Source: Pseudomonas iranensis (GTDB lineage Bacteria; Pseudomonadota; Gammaproteobacteria; Pseudomonadales; Pseudomonadaceae). Taken from it: a DNA stretch of 64,000 nucleotides. This document shows, piece by piece, positions 11,970 to 34,048 of this stretch. Both the position numbers and the translations under genes were made by a program. The stretch is from contig NZ_CP077092.1 in the NCBI RefSeq assembly GCF_014268585.2, positions 4,501,501 to 4,565,500 on the forward strand. The letters are read 5' to 3'. The notes below the pieces were generated by a model, which saw nothing but the letters and a program-made list of their open reading frames with translations, was not told the origin of the DNA and made no database searches. The number at the start of each line of letters is the position of its first letter. Position 1 is the stretch's first letter.

Positions 11970-13955
11970 TCAGGGTTCAAGACGTCGTTGCTGGTAGATC
12001 CAGTCAACGATTTCGCCATCGGGGGTGTAGCCGGAGACGGTTTCTCGCAGGAGCTGGCGGACGCGGGTGTAGTCGTCGGCTTCAACGGCTTTCAGCAGTT
12101 CATCCAAGCGGGCTTTCAGAACGTCCCACGGAAGGTGATCTTCATTTGCGCTCATGATCATCGGATGCGATGTCGCTGCGACGTTATCCCCGATGAGCAA
12201 TTCCTCGTAGAGTTTTTCGCCCGGGCGCAAACCGGTGAACTCGATGGAGATGTCGCCCTGCGGGTTGCGCTCGGAACGGATGCTTAAGCCGGATAGGTGG
12301 ATCATTTTTTCCGCCAGCTCGACGATTTTTACCGGCTCACCCATATCCAAAACGAAGACATCCCCGCCCTGCCCCATGGAACCAGCCTGGATGACCAATT
12401 GTGCGGCTTCGGGGATGGTCATGAAGTAGCGGGTGATCTTGGGATGCGTGACCGTCAGCGGTCCGCCCGATTTGATCTGGCTGTGGAACAACGGAATCAC
12501 CGACCCCGACGATCCGAGTACATTACCGAAACGCACCATGGTGAAGCGCGTCTTGTTGACTCGGGAGACATTGGAACGATCCCCAAACAATACGGGGGCA
12601 ATCTCACGACTCAAAGCCTGAAGGGTCAACTCGGCCAGACGCTTTGTGCTGCCCATGACGTTGGTAGGACGGACGGCCTTGTCGGTCGAGATCAATACAA
12701 AGTTTGAAACGCCAGACTGCAAAGCCGCCTGAGCGGTGTTAAGGGTGCCGATGGCGTTATTCAGAACACCTTCGGCGATGTTGTGCTCGACCATCGGCAC
12801 ATGTTTATAAGCTGCCGCATGGTAAACCGTATCGACCTTCCACGTTTTCATCACATCGAGGAGCTTGTCCTGATGACGGATCGAACCGAGGATCGGCAGT
12901 AGCTTGACCGATACCGACTCACGACAGCCCCGCTGCTCCAGCTCCGAGAGAATGCTGTAAAGGTTGAACTCGCTGTGTTCAAACAAAAGAAGTGTGGTGG
13001 GCTGCAAGGAAAAGATCTGTCGACACAGTTCAGACCCAATGGATCCTCCTGCCCCGGTCACCATGACAATCTTGCCTTTGATACACCGCTCCAGCAGATC
13101 AGGCTGAGCCGGCACCGCGTCGCGTCCCAACAAGTCGGCAATATCGACTTCCTGGATGTCTTCGACCTTCACCCGACCGCTGGCCAGATCAGTGAAATTG
13201 GGAACACTGCGCACGTGCAGGGGAAAACCTTCAAGCAGGTGCAGAATCTCCCGGCGCCGGGCACGTGTAGATGATGGCAGGGCCAACAGAATCTCCTGAG
13301 CCCCAGTGACATCAATCATCTGCTGGATATGTTTGGGTTTGTAGACCTGAAGGCCGGAAATCGAGCGATCTGAGATCCCCGGATCATCGTCGATAAAGGC
13401 TACCGGGCGCATGACTCGCCCCATCCGAAGCGCCGCCACCAACTGATTGCCGGCAACACCCGCCCCATAAATCGCAACTTTGGTAAGGCCGTCGTCACGA
13501 TTGGTGAACGGAACATGCTGGGCGGCGGTGAACCAGTCGCCCATGAAATAATGGCGCATGCACAGGCGCAGTCCGCCGATGATTACAAGGCTCAGCCACC
13601 AATAATTGAAAATAATCGAGCGCGGTACGACCGCTTCGTGATTGCTGTACCAGTATACGACCAGCGCCAAAATCAACGAAGACAGACTGACTGCCTTGAT
13701 AATCACCACCAATGCGTCGTTGCCGAAATAGCGCATGACTGCCCGGTACATGCCAAACCGGATAAACAGCGGGATAGCCACGATGGGAGCGCAGACGAAC
13801 AGCCACAAGTGCACTTTGAACGGATTGACCATCTCGTCGATGCCCAGACGGACGATGAACGCCAACCACAACGCCAGCCAGACGAGGCCCACGTCGGTCA
13901 ACACCTGAATCAATCGCTTCTGTCGACGCGGTAACCCCAGTAAGAATTCGCGCAT
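11970..13955 (-). CDS. wbpM: UDP-GlcNAc 4,6-dehydratase WbpM (membrane-bound)
   Basis: Inner-membrane dehydratase that converts UDP-GlcNAc to the UDP-4-keto-6-deoxy sugar needed for QuiNAc or FucNAc in O-antigen. About 661 residues, with N-terminal membrane helices (to about residue 120), a CoA-binding-like nucleotide fold (KVAIYGAGVAGNQL), then an extended SDR domain (VTGAGGSIGSELCRQ). The catalytic segment reads VMGSTKR, with Met where most SDRs have Tyr, as in the large WbpM/FlaA1 group. An ATG three codons upstream (13964) is possible, but GGGAGT lies directly against it and is well spaced (10 bases) for 13955. It marks one end of the O-antigen locus. Confidence 0.93.
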   Translation of the reverse strand: MREFLLGLPRRQKRLIQVLTDVGLVWLALWLAFIVRLGIDEMVNPFKVHLWLFVCAPIVAIPLFIRFGMYRAVMRYFGNDALVVIIKAVSLSSLILALVVYWYSNHEAVVPRSIIFNYWWLSLVIIGGLRLCMRHYFMGDWFTAAQHVPFTNRDDGLTKVAIYGAGVAGNQLVAALRMGRVMRPVAFIDDDPGISDRSISGLQVYKPKHIQQMIDVTGAQEILLALPSSTRARRREILHLLEGFPLHVRSVPNFTDLASGRVKVEDIQEVDIADLLGRDAVPAQPDLLERCIKGKIVMVTGAGGSIGSELCRQIFSLQPTTLLLFEHSEFNLYSILSELEQRGCRESVSVKLLPILGSIRHQDKLLDVMKTWKVDTVYHAAAYKHVPMVEHNIAEGVLNNAIGTLNTAQAALQSGVSNFVLISTDKAVRPTNVMGSTKRLAELTLQALSREIAPVLFGDRSNVSRVNKTRFTMVRFGNVLGSSGSVIPLFHSQIKSGGPLTVTHPKITRYFMTIPEAAQLVIQAGSMGQGGDVFVLDMGEPVKIVELAEKMIHLSGLSIRSERNPQGDISIEFTGLRPGEKLYEELLIGDNVAATSHPMIMSANEDHLPWDVLKARLDELLKAVEADDYTRVRQLLRETVSGYTPDGEIVDWIYQQRRLEP

Positions 13956-14321
13956 TCTGTTCATACTCCCTTGTACCAATCTGGCCTACTCCCTTGGGTT
14001 GAATCGGCGGTTGACATTGTACGGAGGTGAGGGCTTTCGTTACAGAAAAAACAGCCGGACAAAGCGACTTTCGCGTCATGTATCCACCTTCAAGGACTCA
14101 GACCCCATCACCGACTTCTCCGGTCAGCCGTTAATATTTCAATCGCTGCCTGCCGCCCAGCTACTGCGACGGGCCAAGTGAGCAGGTATACTCCCCGGCG
14201 CGTTTGCGGCCGACTCCGTGCCTGAGGGAACAACTGGGCAGTTTCCGCAGCCTGAGGTCCCCCGCTTTACGCGTGCCAGCACAATCAACAATCAGAAAGT
14301 ATAGGGAAGTGAGCACACGTT
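13956..14321. other. Divergent intergenic region, wbpM / gtr-like operon
   Basis: About 366 bp between wbpM (minus) and the gtr-like operon (plus). It should contain both promoters. A TATACT hexamer at 14187-14192 is a possible -10 box for the plus-strand operon, about 130 bp before its first ATG, but the -35 match is poor. No JUMPstart element, repeat or credible gene was found. Confidence 0.4.
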
Positions 14322-16466
14322 ATGCACACCAGGTTCAGGATAAAAGTAAAGACACTTGTAAAATCAACCGCCCTGGTCGTCATCCTGACGCTGGCTCTGA
14401 CCTGGTTACTGCTGAAAAGCCCGATATTAACGCCTACGCTGAAAATTGAAACTCTTGAATTTCCGGCAGAAAAATCACAGTTATTCTACAAAAGGCTGTC
14501 ACCCTTTACCGAGCAAAACTCCTCCTATACAAAACTTGACGCGTCCCGGACAGCATTTCAGTTCAGCCTGCCAATCTATGACGATGACCTGCGTTGGGAC
14601 CCATTCGAAAAAGCGGGAGATTTCTACCTGACATCGGTGCGTATCAACTTGCTCGCGTATCACTCAGTCATCCCGATGGAAAATGTGAATCCATCGTTTC
14701 AACTGCAAAAGGGTATTCGCAACAACCGCACTTTCTTTATTGCGCCGGCGGGTTCAACAGACCCCCAGATCACCATTCACATAGACAGCGCACATCTGGA
14801 CAAAGTAAGAGTTGGCATGGCTCTTACCTTGGCGGCATTGATTGCATTGGCCATCGTCATATGGATCAACTGGCACGCGGCCATTCTTGACTATGCCCAG
14901 CGTGAAAGTGGCTGGATCGCACGCTTGAAAGGCGCGATAAAAAAAGACGGTTTCTCGCCAACAGAGTTTTCAGCACTGCTGGGCGTCGGGATTGTTCTGA
15001 ATCTTATTCCCATGAGCCACTTCCTACTGTCAGTTGATGACGAGGTTGGAGCCTTTCGAACAGATCCTGCAGTCTGGATCTCGGATGGGCGATGGACTGC
15101 GTTTCTGGTAGAAAAGTTTATTTTTCCATTGCCGGTAATGCCGTTCGCTCCAAATCTGTTCTTTTATATCTGCCTCGCCGTGTCTTACATGGTGATATTA
15201 CGTGCACACAACCTGAAGTTTAGCTGGATCACAACGCTCGGATACTGCGCATTTGTCGCGCACCCAGTCTGGTGGTTCATTGGCGAGTTCTACTCAAACT
15301 TGCCATCAACCGGTCTTGGCGTATTGTGCCTGTCCGTGGCCGTATACATCACATCTCGTATAAATCTTTGCGGCCGATTCAATCGAAGCCGAATACTCCA
15401 GTTCGCCGGCGCCAGCATCTTTCTCTCACTGGCTATCGGCGCCTATCAGTCGCTGGCAATGTTCTATCTGGTAGTCGCGATCGGCAGCGTCATCTTTATC
15501 GCCAAAGACAAAGCCAACGAACCATCAACAGCTTCCCTGTCGCTTGTTAAACGGATTGCTGCACTGGTCGCTGTTTTTTTGAGCGGTTTAATTTTGTATG
15601 CATTTTTCAACAAAGTCGCGAAGCACTTTTATCCGGTAAATTACGGATATCTGGACAGCTTCCTGAAAATAGACGAACTACTCGCAAACCCTCTGCAGAT
15701 CACTAGATTGACCGTCAACGAGATGTTCAAGATCTATGGGGGGTCGGTGCAGAGCTTCGGCGTAAGCTTTTTCATTTCCACAGTAGTCCTAGGCATTGCC
15801 ACAGTGCTTCTGATTACGCAAAAGACGCTGATCTCCTCCGCTCGCATGACGCTGTTTATCGGCGCCCTGCTACTCTCGCCTTTCTTGCTGCATTTTGTCA
15901 CCGGAGGTACCTTCCTCCCCATGCGCTCCATGCTGGCGGTGTCTTTCATCACGTGGCTCAGCGTCATTGTCATTCTTGAAAAACGAGGCTCTCTCCAGGT
16001 TTTGGGGCTCATACTGACCTCAGTACTGGTCTTTCAAATGGTAACCATCAACAGTCAGTACGCCGCCAGCACCATTCTGGCGACCACCCACGACCGCCTC
16101 ACGGCAGAAGCCATCTATGCCCGAATAGCAGAGGTTGACCCTCATTTTGATCGAGAAGCCCGGGCACCGGTTGATCTATATGGCAAGCTTTCCTTCAGTA
16201 GCCGATATCCATCGCCCGACTCTTCGACCATGAGCGCTTCGTTCTTCGACTGGGATGAGGGCAACGCCAACAGGATGCTCAAATATATGCAACTGCTCGG
16301 TTTCAGCAATGTATTTGCTCTGCACCCGACAATTCGTATCGGGCTGACGCCGAAGTTCAAGAATATGCCCGTCTGGCCTGCGCCAGGCTCTGTTCGCTTG
16401 GATAATGGTGTCTACCTGATCAAGCTGTCAGAAAAACCAGACCCGACCCACGCCAAGCACCAATAG
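14322..16466 (+). CDS. GtrII-type periplasmic O-antigen glycosyltransferase (Glucos_trans_II family)
   Basis: A 714-residue polytopic membrane protein. One helix lies near residues 14-31, followed by an extracytoplasmic domain to about residue 160, a helix at about 162-182, and then some ten further helices with short loops. The region from FSALLGVGIVLNLIPM through SVDDEVGAFRTD and DGRWTAFLVEKFIFP fits the Glucos_trans_II (GtrII/GtrV) family. These enzymes move a sugar from a polyprenyl phosphate carrier to O-antigen on the periplasmic side, with an early acidic loop (here DDE) likely catalytic. The acceptor and linkage cannot be read from sequence. It heads the gtr-like operon, with GGGAAGTGAG before the ATG; base composition is clearly more AT-rich than the housekeeping genes (25 of 60 bases G+C at 15541-15600). 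Confidence 0.8.
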   Translation: MHTRFRIKVKTLVKSTALVVILTLALTWLLLKSPILTPTLKIETLEFPAEKSQLFYKRLSPFTEQNSSYTKLDASRTAFQFSLPIYDDDLRWDPFEKAGDFYLTSVRINLLAYHSVIPMENVNPSFQLQKGIRNNRTFFIAPAGSTDPQITIHIDSAHLDKVRVGMALTLAALIALAIVIWINWHAAILDYAQRESGWIARLKGAIKKDGFSPTEFSALLGVGIVLNLIPMSHFLLSVDDEVGAFRTDPAVWISDGRWTAFLVEKFIFPLPVMPFAPNLFFYICLAVSYMVILRAHNLKFSWITTLGYCAFVAHPVWWFIGEFYSNLPSTGLGVLCLSVAVYITSRINLCGRFNRSRILQFAGASIFLSLAIGAYQSLAMFYLVVAIGSVIFIAKDKANEPSTASLSLVKRIAALVAVFLSGLILYAFFNKVAKHFYPVNYGYLDSFLKIDELLANPLQITRLTVNEMFKIYGGSVQSFGVSFFISTVVLGIATVLLITQKTLISSARMTLFIGALLLSPFLLHFVTGGTFLPMRSMLAVSFITWLSVIVILEKRGSLQVLGLILTSVLVFQMVTINSQYAASTILATTHDRLTAEAIYARIAEVDPHFDREARAPVDLYGKLSFSSRYPSPDSSTMSASFFDWDEGNANRMLKYMQLLGFSNVFALHPTIRIGLTPKFKNMPVWPAPGSVRLDNGVYLIKLSEKPDPTHAKHQ

Positions 16467-16485
16467 ACTATCGAAGTCCCTCGCG

Positions 16486-16521
16486 AGTGGAGCTCCGAGG
16501 GAGCTTCCTCGGAGCTCCACT
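16486..16521. repeat. Perfect 15-bp inverted repeat between first and second gene of gtr-like operon
   Basis: AGTGGAGCTCCGAGG at 16486-16500 is followed after six bases by its exact reverse complement at 16507-16521. It lies 19 bp after the GtrII stop codon. No T-tract follows, so it is not a classical terminator; it could be an mRNA-stability hairpin or a protein site. Confidence 0.75.
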
Positions 16522-16678
16522 CTGCGCAACACAAATGCACTCGAGATGTTGAAGACAGCCACTTTGAACCAATGCACGCCACTTACGAACGGCGTGGATT
16601 GGCCCGACATACGCAGCAACATCTGTAGTAACATTTCGCCCATCATCAAGTGCTCCGCCCTATATTTTTGGATAAATC

Positions 16679-17788
16679 ATGGAAGTGAATCAAACCGTTC
16701 CGTTGTTTTCTGCAGCCGCGGCGAACGCAGGCATCGACTTCTCCGAACCCCTAATGCGGGTAGTCAATCGACACTGGTACATCATGGGCGAGGAGGTCAA
16801 AGCTTTTGAGCGCGAATTCTCCGACTATGTAGGCGTTGAGCATTGCATCTCCGTCGCCAATGGCTCCGAAGCATTGGAGATCGCTTTGCTTGGGCTCGGC
16901 GTAGGCCCGGGAGATCGTGTCATTACCGTGGCCAATGCCGGTTTCTACAGCAGCACGGCTATTCGGGCTGTGGGCGCCGAGCCGGTGTATGTCGATGTGG
17001 ACGAACATTCTCTGACTATGTGCCCCGCCTCACTGAAAAAAGCCCTGTCCAAACCGGCTAAAGTCGTGATCGTCACCCACCTTTACGGTCAGTTGGCTGA
17101 AATCGAAACGCTTGCCCAAATGGCGAAGGTGGCAGGTGCGGCGGTGCTGGAAGATTGCGCTCAATCTCATGGCGCACGATCATCCGGAGGACAGTGTGGC
17201 TCTTTTGGCGATCTGGCCTGCTTCAGCTTTTATCCGACGAAAAATCTCGGGGCTCTGGGTGATGGCGGGGCAATCGTTACGTCCTCCGCCGAAATTGCCG
17301 AACGTCTGCGCACGCTGCGGCAGTATGGCTGGTCGACCAAGTATCACGTCACCACAGCCCTTGGCCGCAACAGCCGTCTCGACGAAATGCAGGCTGCTAT
17401 TCTTCGCGTCAAACTGCCTCTGTTGGACCAATGGAATGAACAACGCCGGCATATCGCTCGCCGTTATAATCAGGGGCTCAAAAGCCTGCCCGTAATACTT
17501 CCATTCAGCCTGGAAAGCGATTTTGTCGCACACTTGTTCGTCTTGCGTGTAGCGGACAGAGAGGCCTTCACCCAGTACCTGAAAGAGCAAGGCGTCAGCA
17601 CCGATGTTCATTACCCAGTACCCGATCACTGGCAGACTGCCTACACGTTGACCGAGCAATTCGACCTGCCGGTTACCGAGTCGGCGTGCTCTCGCCTCGT
17701 GTCCCTGCCTTGCTTCCCAGGGCTGACAGAGTCTCAGGTAGACCGCGTCATTGAAGTGGTCAACAGCTACTTCAAGCAGAGGACTTAA
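16679..17788 (+). CDS. DegT/DnrJ/EryC1/StrS sugar aminotransferase (FdtB/QdtB-like)
   Basis: PLP-dependent enzyme of 369 residues that is predicted to aminate a dTDP-3-keto-6-deoxyhexose at C3, giving dTDP-Fuc3N or dTDP-Qui3N. The PLP-binding lysine is K188 in FYPTKNLGALGDGGA; the ring-stacking segment is LEDCAQSHGA (D159); the N-terminal GSEAL loop is present. Next-door genes encode a ketoisomerase and an acyltransferase, which makes the 3-amino assignment more likely than 4-amination. The ribosome site is weak (GGAT seven bases before ATG). The next gene starts one base after its stop. Confidence 0.88.
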   Translation: MEVNQTVPLFSAAAANAGIDFSEPLMRVVNRHWYIMGEEVKAFEREFSDYVGVEHCISVANGSEALEIALLGLGVGPGDRVITVANAGFYSSTAIRAVGAEPVYVDVDEHSLTMCPASLKKALSKPAKVVIVTHLYGQLAEIETLAQMAKVAGAAVLEDCAQSHGARSSGGQCGSFGDLACFSFYPTKNLGALGDGGAIVTSSAEIAERLRTLRQYGWSTKYHVTTALGRNSRLDEMQAAILRVKLPLLDQWNEQRRHIARRYNQGLKSLPVILPFSLESDFVAHLFVLRVADREAFTQYLKEQGVSTDVHYPVPDHWQTAYTLTEQFDLPVTESACSRLVSLPCFPGLTESQVDRVIEVVNSYFKQRT

Positions 17789-17789
17789 C

Positions 17790-18725
17790 GTGCTGTCGCT
17801 CGTCATTCCGGTCTATCGCAACGAAGAATCACTCCCTTCACTGTTGAAGGCTGTCGACAACTTGAATGTCGAGCTTCACGGAGCGTTGGAAGTGGTGTTC
17901 GTTGTAGATGGCAGCCCGGATCGCTCGTATGAGATACTGCGCGACAGCCTGCCACTGCAAAATTTCGCGTCGCAGCTGATTCTACTGTCGAAGAACTTCG
18001 GCTCTTTCATGGCGATCAGAACCGGCCTTCAGCACGGTAAAGGCACGACGTTCGCTGTCATGGCTGCCGACCTGCAGGAACCACCGAGCTTGGTTCTGAC
18101 CATGAATCGAGTGCTGAATACCGAGCCCGTCGATGTTGTCGTCGGCGTGCGAGAAAGCCGTCAGGATCCGTTCCTGTCAAAGCTGGCGTCGAAAACGTTC
18201 TGGGGACTATATAAACGCTACGTGATTCCGGAAATGCCGGCCGGCGGTGTCGATATGTTTGGCTGCAATCTGGAGTTTCGCGACAATCTGCTGAAGCTTG
18301 AAGAGCGGCATAGCTCGCTGATCGCCCAGATTTTCTGGCTCGGCTTCCGCCGTCAGATCGTCCACTATTCCCGGGTGGCCAGAGAGCACGGAAAATCTGC
18401 CTGGACGCTGCGCAAGAAGGTCAATTACCTGATGGACAGCGTCTTCTCTTTTACCGACCTGCCGATCCGGTTGTTGATCCGGATCGGCGCCGTGGGGTCG
18501 GCGCTTTCTGCACTTTATGGCTTCAGTGTCGTTCTAGCCAAGTTGGGAGGACTGATCGACGTGCCAGGCTATGCCATGACCCTGTTCACCATCACGCTGC
18601 TGGGCAGCCTGAATCTGTTGGGACTGGGCGTGATCGGTTCGTATGCCTGGCGCACCTATGAAAATACAAAAGGGCGCCCACTGGCGATCCCTATGAAAGT
18701 TTCTGAGTTTGGAGCCAATAAATGA
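17790..18725 (+). CDS. GtrB-type polyprenyl-phosphate glycosyltransferase (GT2)
   Basis: A 311-residue enzyme with a cytoplasmic GT2 domain ([17 protein letters not shown]; acidic motif AADLQEPPS) and two C-terminal membrane helices (about residues 230-255 and 265-290). This matches the DPM1/GtrB group, which transfers a sugar from its nucleotide carrier to undecaprenyl phosphate. Here the donor is inferred to be the dTDP-3-acylamino-3,6-dideoxyhexose made by its neighbours. GTG at 17790 is chosen because AGAGGA lies eight bases upstream and it directly follows the aminotransferase stop. It overlaps the next gene by 4 bp. Confidence 0.87.
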
Positions 18726-19678
18726 GTGATTCACGGGATTTTTTCGTTCACGACCGTGCGATTTGTGAATCGTCCACTATTGGCGCTGGCTCGAGAGTCT
18801 GGGCGTTTGCCCATGTTCTGCCGAACGCCCGGATCGGCGCCGAATGCAATATCTGCGACAACGTGTTCGTAGAGAACGACGTCATCATCGGTGACCGCGT
18901 GACACTGAAATGCGGCGTGCAGGTCTGGGACGGCATCACCATTGAGGACGATGTTTTCGTTGGACCGAATGTCACATTCACCAACGACAAGTTCCCGCGC
19001 AGCAAGGTTTACCCGGAAGCTTTCTCCCGCACCATTATTCGCAAAGGTGCCTCCTTGGGTGCCAACTCAACGATTCTGCCGGGCATCATCGTTGGTACTT
19101 CGGCAATGGTCGGCGCGGGCGCAGTCGTCACGAAATCGGTTCCACCCAATGCCATTGTGGTCGGCAACCCGGCAAAAATCATCGGCTACGTCGATGCCAA
19201 ACCTACCGATGGTGCATTGGTGGAAAATCCGGTCGAGGTCGGCAAATCGGGTGTCTACCCTTGCGGCGTCACGCTGCACCGCATGATGGAAGCCGTCGAT
19301 ATGCGCGGTAGCCTCAGCGTTGGCGAATGCGGTAAAGATGTGCCGTTCGAAGTGAAGCGTTACTTTCTCGTGACCAATGTTCCAACGGCGGAAACCCGTG
19401 GCGAGCACGCTCACCGCGAATGCCACCAGTTTTTGGTAGCGGTCAAAGGCACCGTACATGTCGTTGCCGACAACGGTAAGCATCGCCAGGAGTTTGTTCT
19501 GGACAACCACACGCTGGGCCTTTTCCTGCCAGCGATGACCTGGGGGATTCAGTACAAGTATTCGGCGGACGCTGTCCTGCTGGTCTTCGCTTCGGAACAC
19601 TACATGGCCGATGACTATATCCGTGATTACGATCAGTTCCTGATCGAGAAGAAACAGCAGGCAGTTTCGCCGGAATGA
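18722..19678 (+). CDS. Fused sugar N-acyltransferase / dTDP-4-keto-6-deoxyhexose 3,4-ketoisomerase (WxcM-like)
   Basis: A 318-residue two-domain protein. Residues 1-165 form a left-handed beta-helix of hexapeptide repeats (for example [20 protein letters not shown]) of the FdtC/WbbJ acyltransferase type. Residues 180-310 form a cupin like FdtA/QdtA and WxcM C-terminal domains ([16 protein letters not shown]), which isomerise dTDP-4-keto-6-deoxyglucose to the 3-keto sugar. The same fusion is known in Xanthomonas WxcM. With the aminotransferase two genes upstream it completes a route to dTDP-Fuc3NAc or dTDP-Qui3NAc; axial or equatorial C4 cannot be decided by eye. It starts inside the last codons of the GtrB gene (ATGA overlap). 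Confidence 0.88.
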
Positions 19679-20070
19679 AGCTGAAAAAACTGCTGGAGAT
19701 CAAGTTTGTCCGGTTCCTCCTGACTGGAGGACTCAACACTGCACTGACGTACATTCTGTACTTGGCTTTATTGAGTTTCCTGCCTTATATCTGGAGTTAC
19801 TCAATCAGTTACGTCTGCGGGATTTTTCTCGCGTTCCTGCTCAGTCGCTTCTTCGTATTCAAAGAGCACCAAGGGTTGAAGTCCGCCCTTTTGTTCCCTT
19901 TTGTCTACCTGGCTCAATACATCCTGGGTGTTTTCATTGTCTGGCTATGGGTCAAGAAGCTCTCGCTTCCTGATTACCTGGCGCCGCTGGCAGCAATTGC
20001 ACTCACGCTGCCGCTGACCTTTGTGCTGAGCAGGCTAGTGTTTGTGAAGGGGAGAACGCCAGCGCATTGA
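19675..20070 (+). CDS. GtrA-family flippase
   Basis: A 131-residue protein with four membrane helices (about 10-30, 38-58, 70-92 and 98-118) and the GtrA-family pattern [16 protein letters not shown] near the start and FVLSRLVFV at the end. GtrA proteins are thought to flip undecaprenyl-phosphate-linked sugars to the periplasmic face, where a GtrII-type enzyme uses them. It overlaps the preceding gene by 4 bp (ATGA) and is the last gene of the operon, followed by a two-way terminator. Confidence 0.88.
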
Positions 20071-20121: not shown

Positions 20122-20148
20122 AAAAAAACTCGGTAATCCGGGTTTTTT
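20122..20148. terminator. Bidirectional intrinsic terminator
   Basis: A7-C-T-CGG, loop TAAT, CCG-G-G-T6 form a hairpin with one G-T mismatch and A/T flanks, so it can work in both directions. It sits between the convergent gtrA-like and acyltransferase genes. Confidence 0.8.
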
Positions 20149-20159
20149 ATACCTGAAGG

Positions 20160-21254
20160 TCAGGCTGTTTTTTCAAGCACCGCCGGTGCCGAGAACTTCT
20201 TTTTGAACTGCATGGACGGCTTTTCAATGTACCGCCAGGAGAGCCAGGCCAGACTCATGGAAACAACACTGGCGGCAATCGCCAGCCACCAGGCGTTGAT
20301 AGACTTGTGAGAGATCGACACCAATGCCTGCTGGATCGGGAAAGCGAATAGATAAGTACCGTAGGAGAGATCGCCAAGCTTGCGCATGCCATCAACGCAG
20401 ACAGGACGACGATAAGCGAGGTACATCAGCAAGTAAGGCAACGCGATAAATAGCGCCAGATCGTTGTAATTGAATCGTGATCCGATCAGCAGGATCACCA
20501 GACACATTGCCGCGATACTGCCTTTGAACGGCACGATGTCCTTGTACTTCCAAAGGAAGGTACCCGCCAGGAAAATCAGACCAAAACGCATGGCCGGCAT
20601 TACTGGAGTTGTGCCGAAAAGCGTTCTCGGTGCCATGGGTCCATGGAAGAACAACCAGATAGAGAATGCCGAGATCAACACAATTACCGGCACAACCAGC
20701 GAGAAGGTTTTACGCCCGGCAAAGAAAATGGCGGCCAGAGCTACGTAGCAGAACGCTTCGATCGGGATCGTCCATAACGAACCGTTCACCGTCTGTGGAT
20801 AGGTTACATCCATGAAGACGCCAGGCAGTACGAACGCTGTCTGATACGGAATCGAATTGGTCAGATAACGATAGGTGCCGGAGTCCTGGAAATACTCGCC
20901 AAGTGGCAGTGCCGTGAAAATCGGGCCCAAGATCAATGCGGTGACAAACGAGGTAACCGCCAGAGCCGGTACTATGCGCAAAGCACGTGCCTGCCAGTAT
21001 TCGGTGAATGTCCGCCGCTCCAAAGAACCGGCAATCAGAAAACCACTGATCGCAAAAAAAGCACTAACTGCGAGGCTTCCGGGCTCATACCCCATAAAAA
21101 TGTTGAACCACGTTCCAGGCGATTTACCTGTTAGGGCAAAGCTATGAGTTATCAGGACGACCAGCGCGGCGCACAATCTGATCAAGTCAAAATTGTTAGT
21201 ACGAAGCTTTACCATGTCGCCGAGTGATGTTGCTGGCTGCTTGAAATTGATCAT
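20160..21254 (-). CDS. Acyltransferase family 3 membrane protein (O-antigen O-acetylase-like)
   Basis: A polytopic inner-membrane protein of 364 residues, OafA/YrhL type, with about ten helices. The early block NFDLIRLCAALVVLITHSFA contains the conserved Arg and His of the family; GSLAVSAFFAISGFLIAGS and RALRIVPALAV follow. Such enzymes add acetyl groups to surface polysaccharide, so O-acetylation of the O-antigen is the likely role (inference). Start choice is uncertain: ATG at 21254 is given, with other candidates at 21275 (GTG) and 21215 (ATG). It is convergent with the gtr-like operon and upstream of it is wbpL on the same strand. Confidence 0.85.
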   Translation of the reverse strand: MINFKQPATSLGDMVKLRTNNFDLIRLCAALVVLITHSFALTGKSPGTWFNIFMGYEPGSLAVSAFFAISGFLIAGSLERRTFTEYWQARALRIVPALAVTSFVTALILGPIFTALPLGEYFQDSGTYRYLTNSIPYQTAFVLPGVFMDVTYPQTVNGSLWTIPIEAFCYVALAAIFFAGRKTFSLVVPVIVLISAFSIWLFFHGPMAPRTLFGTTPVMPAMRFGLIFLAGTFLWKYKDIVPFKGSIAAMCLVILLIGSRFNYNDLALFIALPYLLMYLAYRRPVCVDGMRKLGDLSYGTYLFAFPIQQALVSISHKSINAWWLAIAASVVSMSLAWLSWRYIEKPSMQFKKKFSAPAVLEKTA

Positions 21255-21359
21255 TACGCGAACTCGTTTTGGCACCTTATATTCGGCGCGCGCATATTAT
21301 CACGTAAGTGCGGCAGGATAATTTCGCCCTACGAAAGCAATATTATCTGCCGCTCAAGC

Positions 21360-22370
21360 TTACTCCGCCATTCCCGCTTGGTACTTGAAGGCGAGAAATA
21401 TCAAAGGGACATAAGAAAGGATGAGCCCTGTCACCCCGTCCAGCCAGAATCGACTGACGCCTACGGCAATCGGCAGCAACCACAGCAGATTGATCAAACA
21501 GATTGCAACCGTGACACGCCAATGCTTGCCATATCGGCGCGAAGCGAACTGATAGGCATGACTGCGATGGGCCTCATAGACCCTCTCGCCGCGAAGCAGT
21601 CGGCGCAGGAGTGTAAACGTCGCGTCGACGATGAAAACGCCCAGCAGGATCAGCCATCCCCAAAACAGCTCGAATGACACCCAACTGGCCGCAAGCGCAA
21701 GAATGCCCAGAATCAGGCCAAGAAAGCCGCTGCCAGCATCGCCCATAAAGATTCGCGCCTTCGGGAAATTCCAGACCAGGAATCCGCCCACAGCGGCCGC
21801 GAGCAGTAGAGTCGACCCAATCAACGGGGCATCGGCCCCCAACGCGTACAGCAGACATGCACCCAGGCAAACCGTGACCGCCTCGACACCGGCGATCCCA
21901 TCGATACCGTCCATGAAGTTATAGAGATTAAGCATCCATACGAGATAGAAAGCCGCCAATGCCGACCCGACCCACCCCAGATCGAACACCTGCCCAAGCG
22001 CATGAATCGGCGGCAAACCTCCCAGCCAATAGAGCGCCCATGCAGCCGCGACGAAATGCCCCAAGAGCCGCCAGCGGGCAGCGATGTGGCCATGATCATC
22101 CATAAAACCAATGATCGCGACCACCGCCCCGGCCCCCATCACCGAGACAAACAGTCCTGTGGGGATCAACTCTCCTACAAACAACAGACAAAGCGCAGCC
22201 AGAAAAGTGACCACGATCGCCACGCCTCCACCCCTTGGGGTCGGAATCGTGTGCGAACTCCGGTCGTTGGGAATATCGATAAGGCTTTTGGACAAGGCAT
22301 AGCGGCGCAATAGCGCCGTTAAAATGAAGGCACTGACGAAAACCACTGGCACAAGCCAAACGCTACTCAT
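21360..22370 (-). CDS. wbpL: Undecaprenyl-phosphate N-acetylaminosugar-1-phosphate transferase WbpL (MraY/WecA family)
   Basis: Polytopic enzyme of 336 residues that begins O-antigen synthesis by moving a sugar-1-phosphate from UDP-QuiNAc or UDP-FucNAc to undecaprenyl phosphate. It has about ten membrane helices with the family motifs DIPNDRSSHTIPTPRGGGVA near residue 37, DDHGHI, NLYNFMDGIDGIAG and MGDAGSGFLGLILG, and the His-rich loop EAHRSHAYQFA. Only 97 bp separate it from the long transferase gene upstream. Together with WbpM and WbpV in this locus it suggests QuiNAc as the first sugar. Confidence 0.92.
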   Translation of the reverse strand: MSSVWLVPVVFVSAFILTALLRRYALSKSLIDIPNDRSSHTIPTPRGGGVAIVVTFLAALCLLFVGELIPTGLFVSVMGAGAVVAIIGFMDDHGHIAARWRLLGHFVAAAWALYWLGGLPPIHALGQVFDLGWVGSALAAFYLVWMLNLYNFMDGIDGIAGVEAVTVCLGACLLYALGADAPLIGSTLLLAAAVGGFLVWNFPKARIFMGDAGSGFLGLILGILALAASWVSFELFWGWLILLGVFIVDATFTLLRRLLRGERVYEAHRSHAYQFASRRYGKHWRVTVAICLINLLWLLPIAVGVSRFWLDGVTGLILSYVPLIFLAFKYQAGMAE

Positions 22371-22467
22371 AAGCCCAGTGGCTCCTTTGCAAAACTCGAA
22401 TTCGACATTGCGTCAAAAATACTCTGCCCCTTACCGCTGAAACTCAGCGGTAAGGGGCACAACCGGC

Positions 22468-25400: not shown

Positions 25401-26724
25401 CGAACAGATGCCCCGGCAACAAACCATCATTCCCCGGCTGCTCACCGGAAATATTTTTTAGTATGTCCACGTAGCCGTTCAGGAATACGCCAACCTGAGC
25501 ATAAGTCCAGCCTTCGGCATTGACGATCTCGATCAACTTCGTCGAGAGAACCTGTCCTTTGACATAAGGCTCTGACGCCGTCAGTTTGAATTCGACGATG
25601 GAGTCCACCGCTGGCGCCACTTGTGTCTCGGCCAATTTCTCGTAATGAACGCTAATTGAGCGGTCGGCACCTTTTTTGAACGAGGAGCTCTTGCAGAACT
25701 CAGCGCGGCGGTCACTGCTGAAGTGAACGGCGAGCGTTCCTTTATCGAGGGTTCTACGGGCACCCGGCGAAGCACCGATAAGGAAGGAGTTGGACATGTC
25801 CATGCCTAAACCATTCTTGCAGATCTGCGGCCACGCTAACTCGAGCGAAAACGTACATAGCTCAGGCAATTGCGGGTCGCGCTGGGCGCTTTGCCAGGCA
25901 AAAGCCGCGGCATCGAAATCAGGGTCGACAAAACCTTCTTCCGTGACAATCGAAACCGGCAGTTTGTAATCCGGAAATGGAGCAAAAAATTCGTTGGACG
26001 AGAAGCCGGCACCGGACAATAGCGAAGCCAGCGCCTGCTTGCCGTAGGTTTGTGGGGTCGCACTGTTGTAGCGACCCTCGACACCGAACATCGGTGTAAC
26101 AACATGGTCTTCCGGTGCGCCCGCAAAATACTTGAGACCCAACTGGTTCTCGATGGCGATGATCAGCAAACCATCCGGCTTCAAGAGCGAGCGGACTTTT
26201 TCAAGCATGTTCGCGCCCGGATTCTCACCCGAAACGAACAGGTTGGCGTATTCAAAAACACCGATTAGCGTTATGACGTCAAACTTGTTGTCAATCTGGA
26301 AGCTTTCGAAGGTTTCGGCCAATACCGATACGTTCGGCAAGTCTCTGGTACGCGCACGGGCAATGCTGGCACGGCGGGCACTGCCCTCCAGCGCCAGGAC
26401 ATTTCCGCCCTGCTCGCCCAGATAGCGGGTGATGGCGCCACAGCCAGCGCCAATCTCCAGGACGTCACCGCGAAGATCTGCGTCGAACACTCGCAACAAG
26501 TTCGCGCGAGTACTGGATAAGTAATAAAGCGACGGCCAATCCGTGCACCAGCCACGAAGCTCATCGGAAAAAACGCTTACATCACGCGCCTTGTCTATTA
26601 AGTACTTGATGCGCAGTTCGGTGGTATCGCCGTCACTGTAATTGATACTCGCATAATCCGGCCGCGACCAGATCTTGAGTTCTTCGTTAAGTTGATAGCC
26701 CGCTTGCGTCAGTAAAGTATTCAA
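22468..26724 (-). CDS. Multidomain methyltransferase / kinase-like / GT2 / GT4 protein
   Basis: A 1418-residue cytoplasmic protein with several modules. Residues 60-260 are a class I SAM methyltransferase (motif I VLEIGAGCGAI, 88-98). Residues 330-500 contain a kinase-like signature: D442, N447 and D460 in FDAVPQNILID...LIDKEW, resembling the HxDxxxxN...D pattern of APH/WbdD folds. A coiled coil spans about 565-620. A GT2 domain (SVTVILPVYKG, 690-699; D783 in FLNSDVIVP) is followed by a GT4 domain from about 965 to 1340 (ILQVSHEAGGGVKQHVEELS). It could extend and cap the O-antigen: WbdD-type methyltransferase-kinases end chains that are exported by Wzm/Wzt with a carbohydrate-binding tail, and wzt is the gene directly upstream (4-bp overlap). 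The kinase part is the weakest assignment. Confidence 0.8.
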   Translation of the reverse strand: MNTLLTQAGYQLNEELKIWSRPDYASINYSDGDTTELRIKYLIDKARDVSVFSDELRGWCTDWPSLYYLSSTRANLLRVFDADLRGDVLEIGAGCGAITRYLGEQGGNVLALEGSARRASIARARTRDLPNVSVLAETFESFQIDNKFDVITLIGVFEYANLFVSGENPGANMLEKVRSLLKPDGLLIIAIENQLGLKYFAGAPEDHVVTPMFGVEGRYNSATPQTYGKQALASLLSGAGFSSNEFFAPFPDYKLPVSIVTEEGFVDPDFDAAAFAWQSAQRDPQLPELCTFSLELAWPQICKNGLGMDMSNSFLIGASPGARRTLDKGTLAVHFSSDRRAEFCKSSSFKKGADRSISVHYEKLAETQVAPAVDSIVEFKLTASEPYVKGQVLSTKLIEIVNAEGWTYAQVGVFLNGYVDILKNISGEQPGNDGLLPGHLFDAVPQNILIDQQGAPHLIDKEWSLTAGLRVEFLLFRALRQLLGSVTRFSPCADFATATYKEFVFAACAAAGYLIDEADVRQFLSLEASVQSAVNGREPSEFLTWEEDRRVVVDNLLMAFNKSQSALATETQALDAAGREIERIQADSKQIKFELQSELESLQSERYRLSVRLAESEAAYNDVIHSNSWFITKPIRFVVRSLRNGKKALRSNVECCKRAATVYLRDQEIKAPVAAGKSYIVEAPIVRARSVTVILPVYKGIEMTKRCIEAAMPGILSMAGSKIIAINDCSPDAGMLDMLLELETQWPGLLTVLDNPNNLGFVKTVNRGMRQAGEDDIVFLNSDVIVPQNWLERLTAEAYSAPNIGTVTPFSNNATICSFPAFLYENEQAFGLDVHQIDKVFAGARLPNVKAPTGVGFCMYVRRDCLDVVGLLNEEKFGRGYGEENDLCQRALKAGWFNVITPNLYAFHEGGVSFSSTKQELIENAFKAIVDLHPDYHLDIQTFIAEDPVKLVRINRLVQLLSILDRPKILQVSHEAGGGVKQHVEELSEALQANAYNLILTPRKGTGAVSLYMGTFPGADELVFRLPEELPMLVDLLKGCGVGFVHFHHTLGLNPALFDLPAQLGTEYALTAHDFYWIGGNPTLTNEAGVFPGQYSDDLLNPAFPLPDGVSAAAWRDQLRGFIENAKTVVFPSEYTLSLYQQHYALQRPIVALHVEEKRPVSSAVAAISAKPRYTVGVLGALGKEKGADYLEQLAEKAKAASAPFDFKLLGFAYRELRGVFTTGKYDAADLARLMAEHDLDLILFPAQWPETYSYTLSYALQSGLPIIAPDIGAFPERLASREHTLVYRFGIEPEELLGAMSAFVKSSVAGDSVLAPSRGQSLLNADFYDVDYLQLVKSDVPRQEHLGFLELPAASASAAEYEAPLTTREIALLALWTLYRKPGMQRLSRAVPYGLRQKIKRKLSKRPLHEIVDLHKN

Positions 26725-28028
26725 TTTGTAACCTTTTTGGCACGAATGCTCGAATCTAGATTTACAAGCCCAAAAAACTTGTCTGTCGGCCGCACCTGCA
26801 GGTGCACAGAATCGTAACGGCGATCACGTGGAGTCACTTCCTCACCGTCCTTGGTCGAAACACCAAGGGAAATGAAGTAGTCACCCGGAGCCAGTTCGCA
26901 GGCAATCGACAGCTCGACCTCGACGATATCGCCCTTGCGACCAAAGGCACGGAAATCCGCAGAGTCGAGCGTTTCACTGTTCACGCCGTAAACGGTAACA
27001 CCTTCCTTGGTCTTGATGGTCATGCCGAGGATAGGGCAAACCAGATCGGTATCAAATCTGACGAACACGGCCAGCTTGAGCTTCGACCCGGTGTCGACAG
27101 CGACGGGATACTCTTGGCCATCCGCGCTTAAATGAAAGTCGATGATCGTTGCTGCACGATCACCCCAACGATATTCATTGGGATTGTAGTTGGGGTGAGT
27201 ATCAAACACGTCCATCCCGCCCTCAGGCGTGTGATACGTTTCCGGTGCGTCGGCAGCAGGCTCGAGTTCCGTCACCACTGAGTTCTGGGTCTTGCCGAAC
27301 AGCAGATCCAGATAGCGATTGACTACTTTGCGTGGCTCGCCTTGCTCTAACTGCACGCCGTCATTCAACAGGAATGCCTTGTCGCAGTGAGTCACGATCT
27401 GCTCACTTGAATGCGTCACGAGGAGAATGCTGGTGCCATTTTCCTTTAGCTTCTTCAAGCGATCGAAACAGCGTGCCTGGAACTTCGCATCACCCACGGC
27501 CAACGCTTCGTCAACAATGAGAATGTCCGGCTCGACCTGTGCTTGAACGGAAAACGCCAGGCGCACGAGCATGCCGCTGGAATAGGTTTTTACCGGTTGA
27601 TTGATAAACTCGCCGATGTCTGCAAACTCGATGATTGCATCGTACCTTTCATCGATCTCATCTTTGCTCAAACCGAGGATAGTTGCGTTCAGGTAAACGT
27701 TCTCTCGCCCGGTAAACTCGGGATTGAAACCCGAGCCCAGTTCAAGCAACGCGGCGATCCGGCCGTGCGTTTCCACAGTACCGCCGGTAGGGTTCAGCGT
27801 CCCGCAGAGAATCTGCAACAGCGTGGACTTGCCACTGCCGTTTTTGCCGACAATCCCGACGGTCTCGCCTTTACGGATCTCGAATGAGACATCGTGGAGC
27901 GCCCAGAACTCGCGGCAATATTTCTTCCTGCCGCGACTGAGCATCTGCAGCAGACGATCACGGGGCTTGTCATAAATCTCGTAGCATTTGCTGAGATTCT
28001 GAACTTTGATGGCAATCTCAGATGACAT
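26721..28028 (-). CDS. wzt: O-antigen ABC transporter ATP-binding protein Wzt with C-terminal carbohydrate-binding domain
   Basis: ATPase of the ABC exporter that moves finished, undecaprenyl-linked O-antigen across the inner membrane. It is 435 residues: an ABC domain with Walker A GKNGSGKST (about 61-69), signature TYSSGM and Walker B ILIVDEALAVGD, then from about residue 265 a Wzt_C-type beta-sandwich. In E. coli O9a such a tail reads a terminal modification on the chain, so its presence suggests a capped polymer here. ATG at 28028 lies within wzm (11-bp overlap), so the pair is translationally coupled. Confidence 0.93.
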   Translation of the reverse strand: MSSEIAIKVQNLSKCYEIYDKPRDRLLQMLSRGRKKYCREFWALHDVSFEIRKGETVGIVGKNGSGKSTLLQILCGTLNPTGGTVETHGRIAALLELGSGFNPEFTGRENVYLNATILGLSKDEIDERYDAIIEFADIGEFINQPVKTYSSGMLVRLAFSVQAQVEPDILIVDEALAVGDAKFQARCFDRLKKLKENGTSILLVTHSSEQIVTHCDKAFLLNDGVQLEQGEPRKVVNRYLDLLFGKTQNSVVTELEPAADAPETYHTPEGGMDVFDTHPNYNPNEYRWGDRAATIIDFHLSADGQEYPVAVDTGSKLKLAVFVRFDTDLVCPILGMTIKTKEGVTVYGVNSETLDSADFRAFGRKGDIVEVELSIACELAPGDYFISLGVSTKDGEEVTPRDRRYDSVHLQVRPTDKFFGLVNLDSSIRAKKVTN

Positions 28029-28836
28029 CAGCAAATCCTTTTCGAGTTTTCTGGAACCAAGCGAAGCCCAGCCAGGCGACCACTAGCGAGCCTGCGAAAT
28101 AAATGCCCAGAACAGTGAAATCTGGCATCCGCCCCCAAAACAGCACTTCGCGCGCGTATTCAATGGTTGGCGTGAGCGGGTTCAACATCAGCAGGTGCTG
28201 ATACTTTTCAGGCAATGCACTGGCCGGGTAGAAAATGGGAGATAGAAACATCAGTACAGTGGTCAGGATCCCGATGAATTGCGCAACGTCACGCAAATAA
28301 ACGCCGAGCGATGCCAAGGCCCAGGTCAATCCCATGATCAACAACACCAGAGGCAACATGATCAGCGGGAACAACAAGACCGTGAGATGTGGCGTACCAA
28401 ACAGAAAGACATAGGCAATCAGCCACACGATCAGACTGATCACCATATGAAACAGTGCGGAGCCCACGGTTACCCACGGCAGGATCTCCAGCGGGAAGAC
28501 CACCTTCTTGACGTAGTTGGCGTTGGAAAGAATCAATGTCGGGCTGCGATTGAAGCACTCGGCGAACAGGTTGAATACGATTAGCCCCGCGAACAGGATG
28601 AGCGCGAACTCTGTCTTGGAATCACTGCCACCACTCCAACGGGCCTTGAAAACGACACTGAATACAAACGTGTACACAACCAGCATGAAGACCGGATTGA
28701 AGAACGACCACAGAATCCCCATGAAAGACCCGCGATAGCGCCCGACAACCTCTCGTTGCACCAGTGCTCCGATCATGCTGCGATTGCGCCACAAACTACC
28801 GAGCAATTCCCTCGGCGAAATTGAAAAATTACGCAT
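28018..28836 (-). CDS. wzm: O-antigen ABC transporter permease Wzm
   Basis: Membrane subunit of the O-antigen exporter, ABC-2 type. It is 272 residues with an amphipathic N-terminus and six predicted helices; the block REVVGRYRGSFMGILWSFFN is characteristic of the Wzm/TagG/KpsM family. ATG at 28836 has AGGTG nine bases upstream and is preferred over a start three codons earlier. It is followed by the overlapping wzt, so the two are co-expressed. Its presence, and the lack of wzx/wzy in the window, argues for ABC-dependent O-antigen assembly. Confidence 0.93.
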   Translation of the reverse strand: MRNFSISPRELLGSLWRNRSMIGALVQREVVGRYRGSFMGILWSFFNPVFMLVVYTFVFSVVFKARWSGGSDSKTEFALILFAGLIVFNLFAECFNRSPTLILSNANYVKKVVFPLEILPWVTVGSALFHMVISLIVWLIAYVFLFGTPHLTVLLFPLIMLPLVLLIMGLTWALASLGVYLRDVAQFIGILTTVLMFLSPIFYPASALPEKYQHLLMLNPLTPTIEYAREVLFWGRMPDFTVLGIYFAGSLVVAWLGFAWFQKTRKGFADVI

Positions 28837-28950
28837 TAAACACACACCTAAAAAAACGCAGGGAGAGGAACCACATCAAAAATTCTATCGCTCAAATACT
28901 GCTGACGTGCCTGCAGGACACTCCTAAAGCGTCCTCCGGCGCGAATATGT

Positions 28951-32216: not shown

Positions 32217-32267
32217 GCCAATCCTGATTAGACCGGTTAAACACTTCTGTACGAAACGGACTTTCGA

Positions 32268-33158
32268 TCAGCGTAAAGGCGCTTCCAAAAGCTTCTGTAA
32301 GTATTGGCCGTAACCCGTCTTCTTAAGTGCATCAGCTTGAGCGGCCAGTTGTTCAGCGGTGATCCAGCCGTTGTGATAGGCAATTTCTTCCAGGCAGGCG
32401 ACTTTCAACCCCTGACGCTGCTCAATGGTGTGAACGAAGTGACTCGCTTCCAGCAGGGAATCATGGGTACCGGTATCCAGCCAGGCGAAACCACGACCCA
32501 GCATTTCCACATTCAACGACTTCTGCTTGAGGTAGGCACGATTGACATCGGTGATTTCCAGCTCTCCACGCTCCGAAGGCTTGATGTTCTTGGCAATCTG
32601 AACCACCTGATTGTCATAAAAATACAGACCCGTCACGGCATAGCTGGATTTTGGCTTCAGCGGTTTTTCTTCGATGCTCAACGCGCGGCCGGAGGCATCG
32701 AACTCCACAACACCAAAACGCTCCGGATCGGAAACGTGATAACCGAATACCGTCGCGCCTTGCTGCTGGTTGGTCGCCGAACGCAGATTGTCCGAGAAAT
32801 GCTGACCGTAGAAGATGTTGTCACCCAGAATCAGGCAGCATGGATCCTCACCGATGAACTCTTCACCAATGATGAACGCTTGTGCCAAACCATCTGGACT
32901 CGGTTGTTCCGCATAGGTGAGTTTGATCCCGTAAAGGCTACCGTCGCCCAACAGCTTGCGGAAACATGGCAAGTCTTCAGGCGTCGAGATAATCAGAATC
33001 TCGCGCATACCAGCAAGCATCAACACCGACAACGGATAAAAGATCATCGGCTTGTCGTAGATCGGCAGCATCTGCTTCGACACGCCGAGAGTCAGCGGGT
33101 GCAGGCGCGTGCCCGAGCCGCCGGCGAGGATGATGCCTTTACGATTTGTTGTGGTCAT
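32268..33158 (-). CDS. rmlA: Glucose-1-phosphate thymidylyltransferase RmlA
   Basis: Makes dTDP-glucose from dTTP and glucose-1-phosphate, the first step to dTDP-rhamnose and to dTDP-3-amino sugars. It is 296 residues with the nucleotidyltransferase signature [11 protein letters not shown] near residue 14, LGDNIFYG and [10 protein letters not shown]. Its ATG overlaps the rmlD stop by 4 bp, so rmlB-rmlD-rmlA are a tight operon. Its product also feeds the ketoisomerase-aminotransferase branch at the other end of the locus. Confidence 0.97.
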
Positions 33159-34048
33159 TTGTTCAGAACTTCCCTAAGCATTCGGGTTACACCACTTTGC
33201 CAATCCGGCAAGTGTAGAGAAAAATTGTCACGCAGTTTTTGAGTATCCAGTCGGGAATTCAAAGGACGGCGCGCAGGTGTCGGGTAAGCGGTGGTATCGA
33301 TCGGATTGATCGCCGTGACGGCAAGCGCTTCACCGTTTGCCTTGGCAAAGTCGATCACATGGCTGGCATAACCGTGCCATGAGACTTCGCCGGCGGCGGC
33401 CAGATGATAGAGCCCCGCCAGTTCCGGGCGAAACAAGACCTGCTCGATAGCCCGTGCGGTGACGTCAGCGATCAGCTCAGCACCAGTAGGCGCGCCGATT
33501 TGATCTGCGATCACACTCAGCGTTTCGCGATTCTTTGCCAGCCGCAGCATGGTCTTGGCGAAATTGTTACCACGCGCTGAGTAGACCCAACTGGTTCGGA
33601 AGATCAGGTGCTTGCAGCCAGAAGCGATAATCGCTTGCTCGCCCGCCAATTTACTTGCGCCATACTGGTTCACCGGCGCGACGGCATCTACCTCTTGCCA
33701 AGGCGTCTCGCCCAGGCCGCTAAAGACGTAGTCGGTGGAGTAATGTATCAACCACGCACCCGAGACCGCCGCTTCTTCGGCCATCAGCCGGCTCGCTTGG
33801 GCATTGACGAGATCAACCAGCTCCGGTTCCGATTCAGCCTTGTCAACGGCGGTATACGCGGCCGCATTGACGATGATCTCGGGCTCGACGTGTCGGATAG
33901 TCATGCGAAGCGCATCCAGATCGGACAAATCGCCGCACAGACCATCGACGGCATTGCGATCAAGCGCAATCAACTCGCCCAGCGGTGCGAGCGAGCGTTG
34001 CAACTCCCATCCAACTTGTCCGTTTTTGCCCAGCAGAAGAATCTTCAT
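33155..34048 (-). CDS. rmlD: dTDP-4-dehydrorhamnose reductase RmlD
   Basis: Reduces dTDP-4-keto-L-rhamnose to dTDP-L-rhamnose with NADPH. It is 297 residues, with the glycine motif [21 protein letters not shown], and the catalytic YGASK segment ([12 protein letters not shown]). Overlaps of 4 bp on both sides link it to rmlB and rmlA. Its usual partner rmlC (3,5-epimerase) is not in the window, so either rmlC is elsewhere or the reductase has a different keto-sugar substrate. Confidence 0.96.

Follow-up and report, generated by a model that had tools for sequence, protein, structure and literature searches.

A candidate three-component periplasmic glycosylation cassette with partial sugar synthesis of its own in an O-antigen locus of Pseudomonas iranensis

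The glycosylation (gtr) cassettes borne by Shigella and Salmonella phages combine GtrA, GtrB, and a type-specific transferase. Here, we describe a cassette with the same three components in a 64,000-nucleotide (nt) stretch of Pseudomonas iranensis (NZ_CP077092.1, 4,501,501 to 4,565,500; hereafter ‘the window’, within which all coordinates are positions). Unlike the phage-borne cassettes, it is predicted to make a sugar nucleotide and sits in a chromosomal O-antigen locus. With a probability of about 0.77, we read it from its sequence as a three-component periplasmic glycosylation cassette with partial sugar synthesis of its own, which would branch the O-polysaccharide (OPS) after export by the ATP-binding cassette (ABC) transporter Wzm/Wzt. 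Systems of this kind are known; the pairing of its core with a modular GtrII-type transferase is apparently new.

The four core genes are those of Xanthomonas wxcKLMN, with their order unchanged (fdtB-gtrB-fdtD-gtrA in X. euvesicatoria L104). The sequence-only reading of the window had set the cassette against classical gtr cassettes, which use a common sugar; this contrast is fair, but the same sugar-making core is already known in Xanthomonas as wxcKLMN(O). In X. campestris pv. campestris (Xcc), Tn5 mutants of wxcK and wxcN lose N-acetylfucosamine (FucNAc; traces persist in wxcN), keep the rhamnan, and have more rhamnose, with a caveat for polarity, and the acceptor of the FucNAc branch is the O-antigen rhamnan (PMC4878081). 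Xanthomonas FucNAc is described as an N-acetyl-3-amino hexose. In X. hortorum, wxcK through wxcO are given as a transaminase, a glycosyltransferase, a bifunctional acetyltransferase/isomerase, a sugar transferase, and a sugar translocase, an order that L104 matches, and wxcK and wxcO mutants are resistant to a phage (PMC12573098). The wxcO slot varies among strains: wxcO has 750 amino acids (aa) in B100, and a different 730-aa open reading frame (ORF) is found in ATCC33913 and 8004 (PMC2238763, whose wzm/wzt statements refer to other xanthomonads). The Xanthomonas papers present wxcO as a sugar translocase or as an integral membrane protein, and wxcN as a small membrane protein or as a sugar transferase, in descriptions that use no three-component label. 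Because genes four and five of L104 are GtrA-like and a 753-aa polytopic protein without a Pfam match, wxcN is probably GtrA and wxcO probably the transferase. The window differs at this point: no ~750-aa polytopic protein follows gtrA, a convergent acyltransferase lying there instead, and its transferase is upstream of the core, of GtrII type (PF14264, unlike the L104 protein), with an N-terminal β-sandwich.

Two other systems bear comparison. In the three-component pentofuranose system of Citrobacter youngae O1, a GT-C enzyme likewise acts on OPS after polymerization, genes for the lipid-linked donor lie in the locus, and the transferase ORF12 also has an extra β-rich domain, called a carbohydrate-binding module; it differs in deriving its donor from phosphoribosyl pyrophosphate on the lipid, in lacking GtrB, and in its transferase family, GT136 (PMC11127046). 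A cluster of Pseudomonas donghuensis likewise combines GtrA, GtrB, and GtrII in a Pseudomonas, in a paper that makes no use of the word aminotransferase (PMC8509367). Among the papers listed, we found none linking Xanthomonas wxc genetics, the P. syringae rhamnan puzzle (taken up at the end), and three-component systems.

Gene content and proposed route

The cassette comprises five genes, followed here by two hairpins.

14322..16466, + strand: gtrC-type polytopic GT-C glycosyltransferase, 714 aa (PF14264 GtrII, 128 bits, residues 231-551)
16679..17788, + strand: fdtB/wxcK-like pyridoxal phosphate-dependent sugar aminotransferase, 369 aa (PF01041 DegT/DnrJ/EryC1, 350 bits)
17790..18725, + strand: gtrB/wxcL-like polyprenyl-phosphate glycosyltransferase, 311 aa (PF00535 GT2, 65 bits)
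18722..19678, + strand: fdtD/wxcM-like fusion of a hexapeptide N-acetyltransferase (71.5 bits) and a sugar 3,4-ketoisomerase (FdtA, 165.6 bits), 318 aa
19675..20070, + strand: gtrA/wxcN-like small membrane protein, presumed flippase, 131 aa (PF04138, 76 bits)
16485..16522: perfect 15-bp inverted repeat in the gtrC-fdtB gap, occurring once in the 6.07-Mb genome
20123..20148: terminator-like hairpin (A-stem-T) between the convergent gtrA and acyltransferase genes

The five plus-strand ORFs and their families agree with the sequence-only reading in both the ORF list and Pfam, as does the tight packing after the second gene, with one base between fdtB and gtrB and 4-bp overlaps at gtrB/fdtD (18722-18725) and fdtD/gtrA (19675-19678). 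The start of gtrB is probably the GTG at 17790, one base past the fdtB stop and preceded by AGAGGA; its longest ORF opens at TTG 17751. Relatives of the fdtB product in the PDB include QdtB (3frk, E 2.3e-86). GtrB is homologous to PDB 5ekp (glycosyltransferase sll0501, E 4.7e-43) and to undecaprenyl-phosphate 4-deoxy-4-formamido-L-arabinose (Und-P-Ara4FN) transferase entries, with a score under the NCBIfam cut-off. GtrA and GtrII are each matched once in the genome, by the cassette genes themselves.

We infer the activities, the sugar identity, the acceptor, and the flipping step, and the route would run as follows. RmlA and RmlB, encoded in the same locus, would supply dTDP-4-keto-6-deoxyglucose, which the C-terminal domain of the fusion would isomerize to the 3-keto sugar; FdtB would add the 3-amino group, and the N-terminal domain of the fusion would N-acetylate it to dTDP-3-acetamido-3,6-dideoxygalactose (dTDP-Fuc3NAc, most likely) or its gluco counterpart, dTDP-Qui3NAc. 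GtrB would then transfer the sugar to undecaprenyl phosphate, GtrA would flip the undecaprenyl-linked sugar, and, once Wzm/Wzt has exported the chain, the GT-C transferase would attach it in the periplasm as a side branch, its N-terminal β-sandwich possibly docking the acceptor. Gene families, locus, and GT-C matches support the earlier proposal that three-component (GtrA/GtrB/GT-C) decoration is combined with enzymes for a 3-acetamido-3,6-dideoxyhexose in an O-antigen locus, and the proposed function is well supported by gene anatomy and Xanthomonas genetics.

Because a 212-nt gap and a strong hairpin separate them, gtrC may be partly uncoupled from fdtB and the genes downstream. This hairpin (16485-16522) has a minimum free energy of -39.3 kcal/mol (z -5.9) and no T-run, and the related genome G036 has, as judged by eye, a shorter form at the same site; it is a possible attenuator or RNA-processing site. 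The terminator that the sequence-only reading assigned to the operon exists at 20123-20148, but it sits between convergent genes. It folds well on the plus strand (-12.5, z -4.3) and more weakly on the minus strand (-7.9, z -1.9), and may therefore serve both genes; it is absent from the output of a consensus terminator scan.

The O-antigen locus, the conserved core, and the exporter

The cassette lies among the following genes.

11970..13979, - strand: wbpM-like nucleotide-sugar dehydratase at the left edge of the locus (PF02719, 411 bits)
20160..21275, - strand: acyltransferase-3 family member that presumably O-acylates the same polysaccharide (PF01757)
21360..22370, - strand: wbpL-like initiating sugar-phosphate transferase, assigned by sequence and place
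22468-26724: 1418-aa multidomain protein (methyltransferase, GT2, GT4/GT1), adjoining wzt
26721..28034, - strand: wzt, ABC ATPase with a Wzt_C domain (PF14524, 111 bits; PF00005)
28018..28845, - strand: wzm, ABC-2 membrane exporter (PF01061)
32268..33158, - strand: rmlA-like nucleotidyltransferase (PF00483)
34045..35121, - strand: rmlB, dTDP-glucose 4,6-dehydratase, precursor supplier (TIGR01181, 520 bits)

With Wzm, a Wzt carrying Wzt_C, and no Wzx nearby (the nearest of three PF01943 matches in the genome is more than 200 kb away), the locus is of the ABC transporter-dependent O-antigen type. It also holds two GT2 genes, an epimerase, and rmlD, while rmlC lies at two other places in the genome; wbpM and comEA-like genes border it on the left, and ihfB-like, rpsA, and cmk genes on the right. 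The rmlB gene is the only one of 17 rmlB-model matches genome-wide above the curated cut-off. The 1418-aa protein could extend and cap the chain, to be read by Wzt_C. Since the rml genes, wzm/wzt, and the cassette sit together, precursor supply, export, and decoration would all be found in one locus.

This setting bears on how the cassette arose and what it needs. It does run against its neighbors, wbpM and the acyltransferase both being on the minus strand. The sequence-only reading had further called the operon self-contained, which does not hold because the precursor depends on RmlA/RmlB, encoded in the same locus on the opposite strand. Its AT-richness stands relative to DNA beyond the locus (operon GC 0.530 versus 0.61-0.63) but hardly relative to the locus itself (0.546 over 11970-13979 and 20160-35121), so that low GC is a property of the entire locus and not of the operon alone. 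Nor was recent acquisition as a module borne out: genome G036 has the cassette at the same place, with four cassette proteins 87-97% identical, values that fall inside the spread of the flanking genes. The exception is gtrC, whose product is 68% identical to that of G036 (L031 5107-7251), whereas the remaining 21 proteins in the comparison reach 81-99%. In 300-bp bins, DNA identity falls to 0.62-0.80 in gtrC, compared with 0.79-0.92 in the surroundings and 0.73 at the gtrA end, an island of divergence that suggests allele exchange or fast diversification of an acceptor-specific enzyme. None of 39 matching phage records covers 80% of the fusion protein, and the window has no tRNA; no search was aimed at integrases.

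We surveyed 398 Pseudomonas genomes, calling fused FdtD at E 1e-90 or better, and found it in 33, the source genome included. In 28 of the 33, the fusion has fdtB, gtrB, and gtrA all beside it on its own strand; taken singly, gtrB is there in 31, fdtB in 30, and gtrA in 29. Incomplete cores occur in G026 (no fdtB), G034 (no gtrA ORF called), G151, G189, and G232. In G034 (L038 7290-8618), the fusion frame continues into the gtrA region, with tblastn similarity to gtrA in another frame, and gtrA may be disrupted or mis-sequenced there. Of the named matches listed, the nearest to the fusion gene is in P. parakoreensis (97%). A wider sample took the best 80 of 570 confirmed named loci, i.e., the closest relatives, with counts that rest on longest frames and are rough lower bounds. 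These 80 span beta-, gamma-, and alphaproteobacteria, actinobacteria, Chloroflexi, a Prochlorococcus, and others; fdtB, gtrB, and gtrA all lie within 3 kb of the fusion on its strand in 52, and gtrA is present in 55. At distances up to 150 bp from the fusion, gtrB lies upstream in at least 40, gtrA downstream in at least 34, and both in at least 25.

The polytopic partner of the four-gene core varies. By hydropathy-based transmembrane (TM) prediction, a polytopic protein of at least 380 aa adjoins the core on the same strand, upstream or downstream, in 23 of the 33 genomes; among ten such neighbors compared with Pfam, three passed (PMT_2, GtrII, DUF2142), one was weak, and six had no match. 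Keeping the donor-making core constant while the acceptor enzyme changes follows the logic of gtr cassettes. Among individual loci, G242 (L180 9204-11231) has a 675-aa 14-TM protein without a Pfam match between a gtrC-like gene and the core, and in Pseudomonas sp. KUIN-1 (L055), P. caricapapayae (L057), and P. amygdali (L059) the core adjoins a 625-aa polytopic protein, whose copy in G056 scores PMT_2; this arrangement may correspond to the tailocin class B block discussed below.

Fused and unfused loci differ in their exporters. As an unfused control, 10 of 15 fdtA loci were taken with both 20-kb flanks (nine from Pseudomonas and G094 from another genus), while G013, G080, G092, and two loci of G037 were left unextended. 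A Wzm/Wzt-like pair lies within about 20 kb in 26/33 fused and 0/10 unfused loci (Fisher p 1e-5), and PF01943 (Wzx) within 20 kb in 1/33 fused (G151, where the core is absent) and 6/10 unfused loci (G094, G001, G033, G009, G007, G032; p 2e-4), p values that are indicative only, as some assemblies are fragmented and the genomes share ancestry. The fused genomes without the pair are G026, G034, G140, G151, G189, G247, and G263, the last two short-flanked. Ten of the 26 ATPases at fused loci cannot hold a Wzt_C domain because they are only 247-256 aa long. None of the 15 unfused fdtA/fdtC loci (7.5-14 kb) has GtrA. This split by exporter type is apparently new and fits a rule in which unfused genes would serve cytoplasmic Wzx/Wzy assembly and the fusion cassette post-export branching of ABC-exported chains; the association with Wzm/Wzt may explain O-chains that are both branched and ABC-exported.

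The GtrII-type transferase and its N-terminal module

In its structure model, the transferase is GT-C-like in fold. VIA rows 1-33 for the model are GT-C enzymes, whereas Foldseek alone returned nothing at E 0.001. A DDE acidic motif in the first periplasmic loop, at residues D239, D240, and E241 of this transferase, is conserved in 39/39 sequences. The model also delimits an N-terminal module.

14322..14957, + strand: residues 1-212 of the transferase, a TM helix, a β-sandwich at ~37-155 (presumed periplasmic), and a second TM helix

A database search with residues 1-212 alone returned 10 transferases and one other protein, P0040 (567 aa), in which a part matching transferase residues 35-212 (48% identity) is joined to an acyltransferase. 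The latter part is 74% identical over 359 residues to the window protein at 20160-21275. In the survey, 6/398 genomes have the module at E 1e-8. It also heads an 897-aa 14-TM protein beside wbpM in G140 (L182 5322-8015), whose membrane core has no Pfam match; against the transferase profile, hhalign gave 99.1% (E 1.2e-18, 178 columns, 21% identity), with only the module part aligned.

From these occurrences on a GtrII-type GT-C enzyme, an acyltransferase-3 protein, and a third polytopic protein, it is possible, although doubtful, that the module serves for docking to exported O-polysaccharide, specific to the locus and swappable among enzymes, and that, with a variable transferase on a constant core, the FdtD-fusion cassette would be a general route to branched ABC-exported heteropolymers in Pseudomonas. 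The odds are about even that the module serves simply to anchor the protein in the membrane or to stabilize it, with P0040 a chance recombinant, which would be compatible with post-export branching by the cassette. P0040 represents only two member sequences on nine contigs, and the acyltransferase fusion is found in none of the six module-bearing genomes (frames of 717-902 aa). Against chance stand the G140 protein in the wbpM region and the partner of P0040, which is the acyltransferase type of this very locus; since the two genes are on opposite strands here, a plain deletion would not yield such a fusion.

Alternative readings and significance

Residues 9-307 of the fusion enzyme match PDB 4mzu, a ‘WxcM-like protein’ (E 6.3e-118), and the 4mzu/4zu4 enzyme has the same two-domain layout over that range, a likeness that covers the enzyme only. 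We take both entries to be Shewanella denitrificans FdtD, a Fuc3NAc enzyme. H229 and H231, corresponding to the histidine pair altered in the FdtA mutants 2pae/2pak, are invariant in 11/11 aligned fusions, as are R195, the equivalent of FdtA R17, and G275, the equivalent of FdtA residue 97 (H in 2pa7). In QdtA, Y17 and R97 determine that the product is gluco, and replacing them (Y17R/R97H) switches it. R195 thus leans toward the galacto product, a lead only, and dTDP-Fuc3NAc is the most likely product, or else dTDP-Qui3NAc. That the same machinery carries Qui3NAc or a different acyl group is unlikely. FdtA and QdtA are closely related ketoisomerases, and G275 fits neither type at position 97; the arginine where QdtA has tyrosine, the Fuc3NAc assignment of the best PDB relative, and the 3-amino FucNAc of Xanthomonas with the same core all point the other way.

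The cassette might decorate a second surface glycan, the lipopolysaccharide core, or a glycoprotein, given that GT-C enzymes also modify proteins and lipid A and that the VIA rows include oligosaccharyltransferases and ArnT. We consider this quite improbable in view of the position of the cassette inside an O-antigen locus, the Wzm/Wzt-like pair near most fused loci, the O-antigen acceptor in Xcc (PMC4878081), and a module that an acyltransferase of this type of locus also carries. A purely cytoplasmic use, with GtrB or another GT2 enzyme building the sugar into the chain before export and GtrA and GtrC otherwise engaged, could draw on the two GT2 genes and the 1418-aa multidomain transferase. 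It is very improbable, as GtrA stands by the fusion in nearly all fused loci and in none of the unfused loci, which likely use the cytoplasmic route, and GtrB resembles lipid-phosphate transferases, albeit under the NCBIfam cut-off.

Post-export branching by a three-component cassette that supplies its own sugar would resolve a puzzle described for certain strains of plant-associated Pseudomonas, which lack Wzx/Wzy, so that assembly seems Wzy-independent, yet have heteropolymeric O-chains that seem contrary to the ABC pathway; in P. syringae pv. tomato, the O-chain is a rhamnan with non-stoichiometric lateral FucNAc, given with no ring position for its amino group (PMC6804347). It also suggests a rule for reading sequences: the fusion with gtrAB would mark post-export branches, and unfused fdtA cytoplasmic assembly. 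O-chain branches are relevant to phages and tailocins. For instance, tailocin class B of P. syringae is associated with genes for a dTDP-3-amino-3,6-dideoxygalactose transaminase and a glycosyltransferase, along with an N-acetyltransferase gene annotated as dapH, an association significant after Benjamini-Hochberg and not after a stricter correction (PMC12608077); judging from neighboring locus tags, this dapH-glycosyltransferase-wecE block may be the same core. A docking module common to glycosyl- and acyltransferases, if true, would offer a testable idea for how modifications of surface glycans are targeted.

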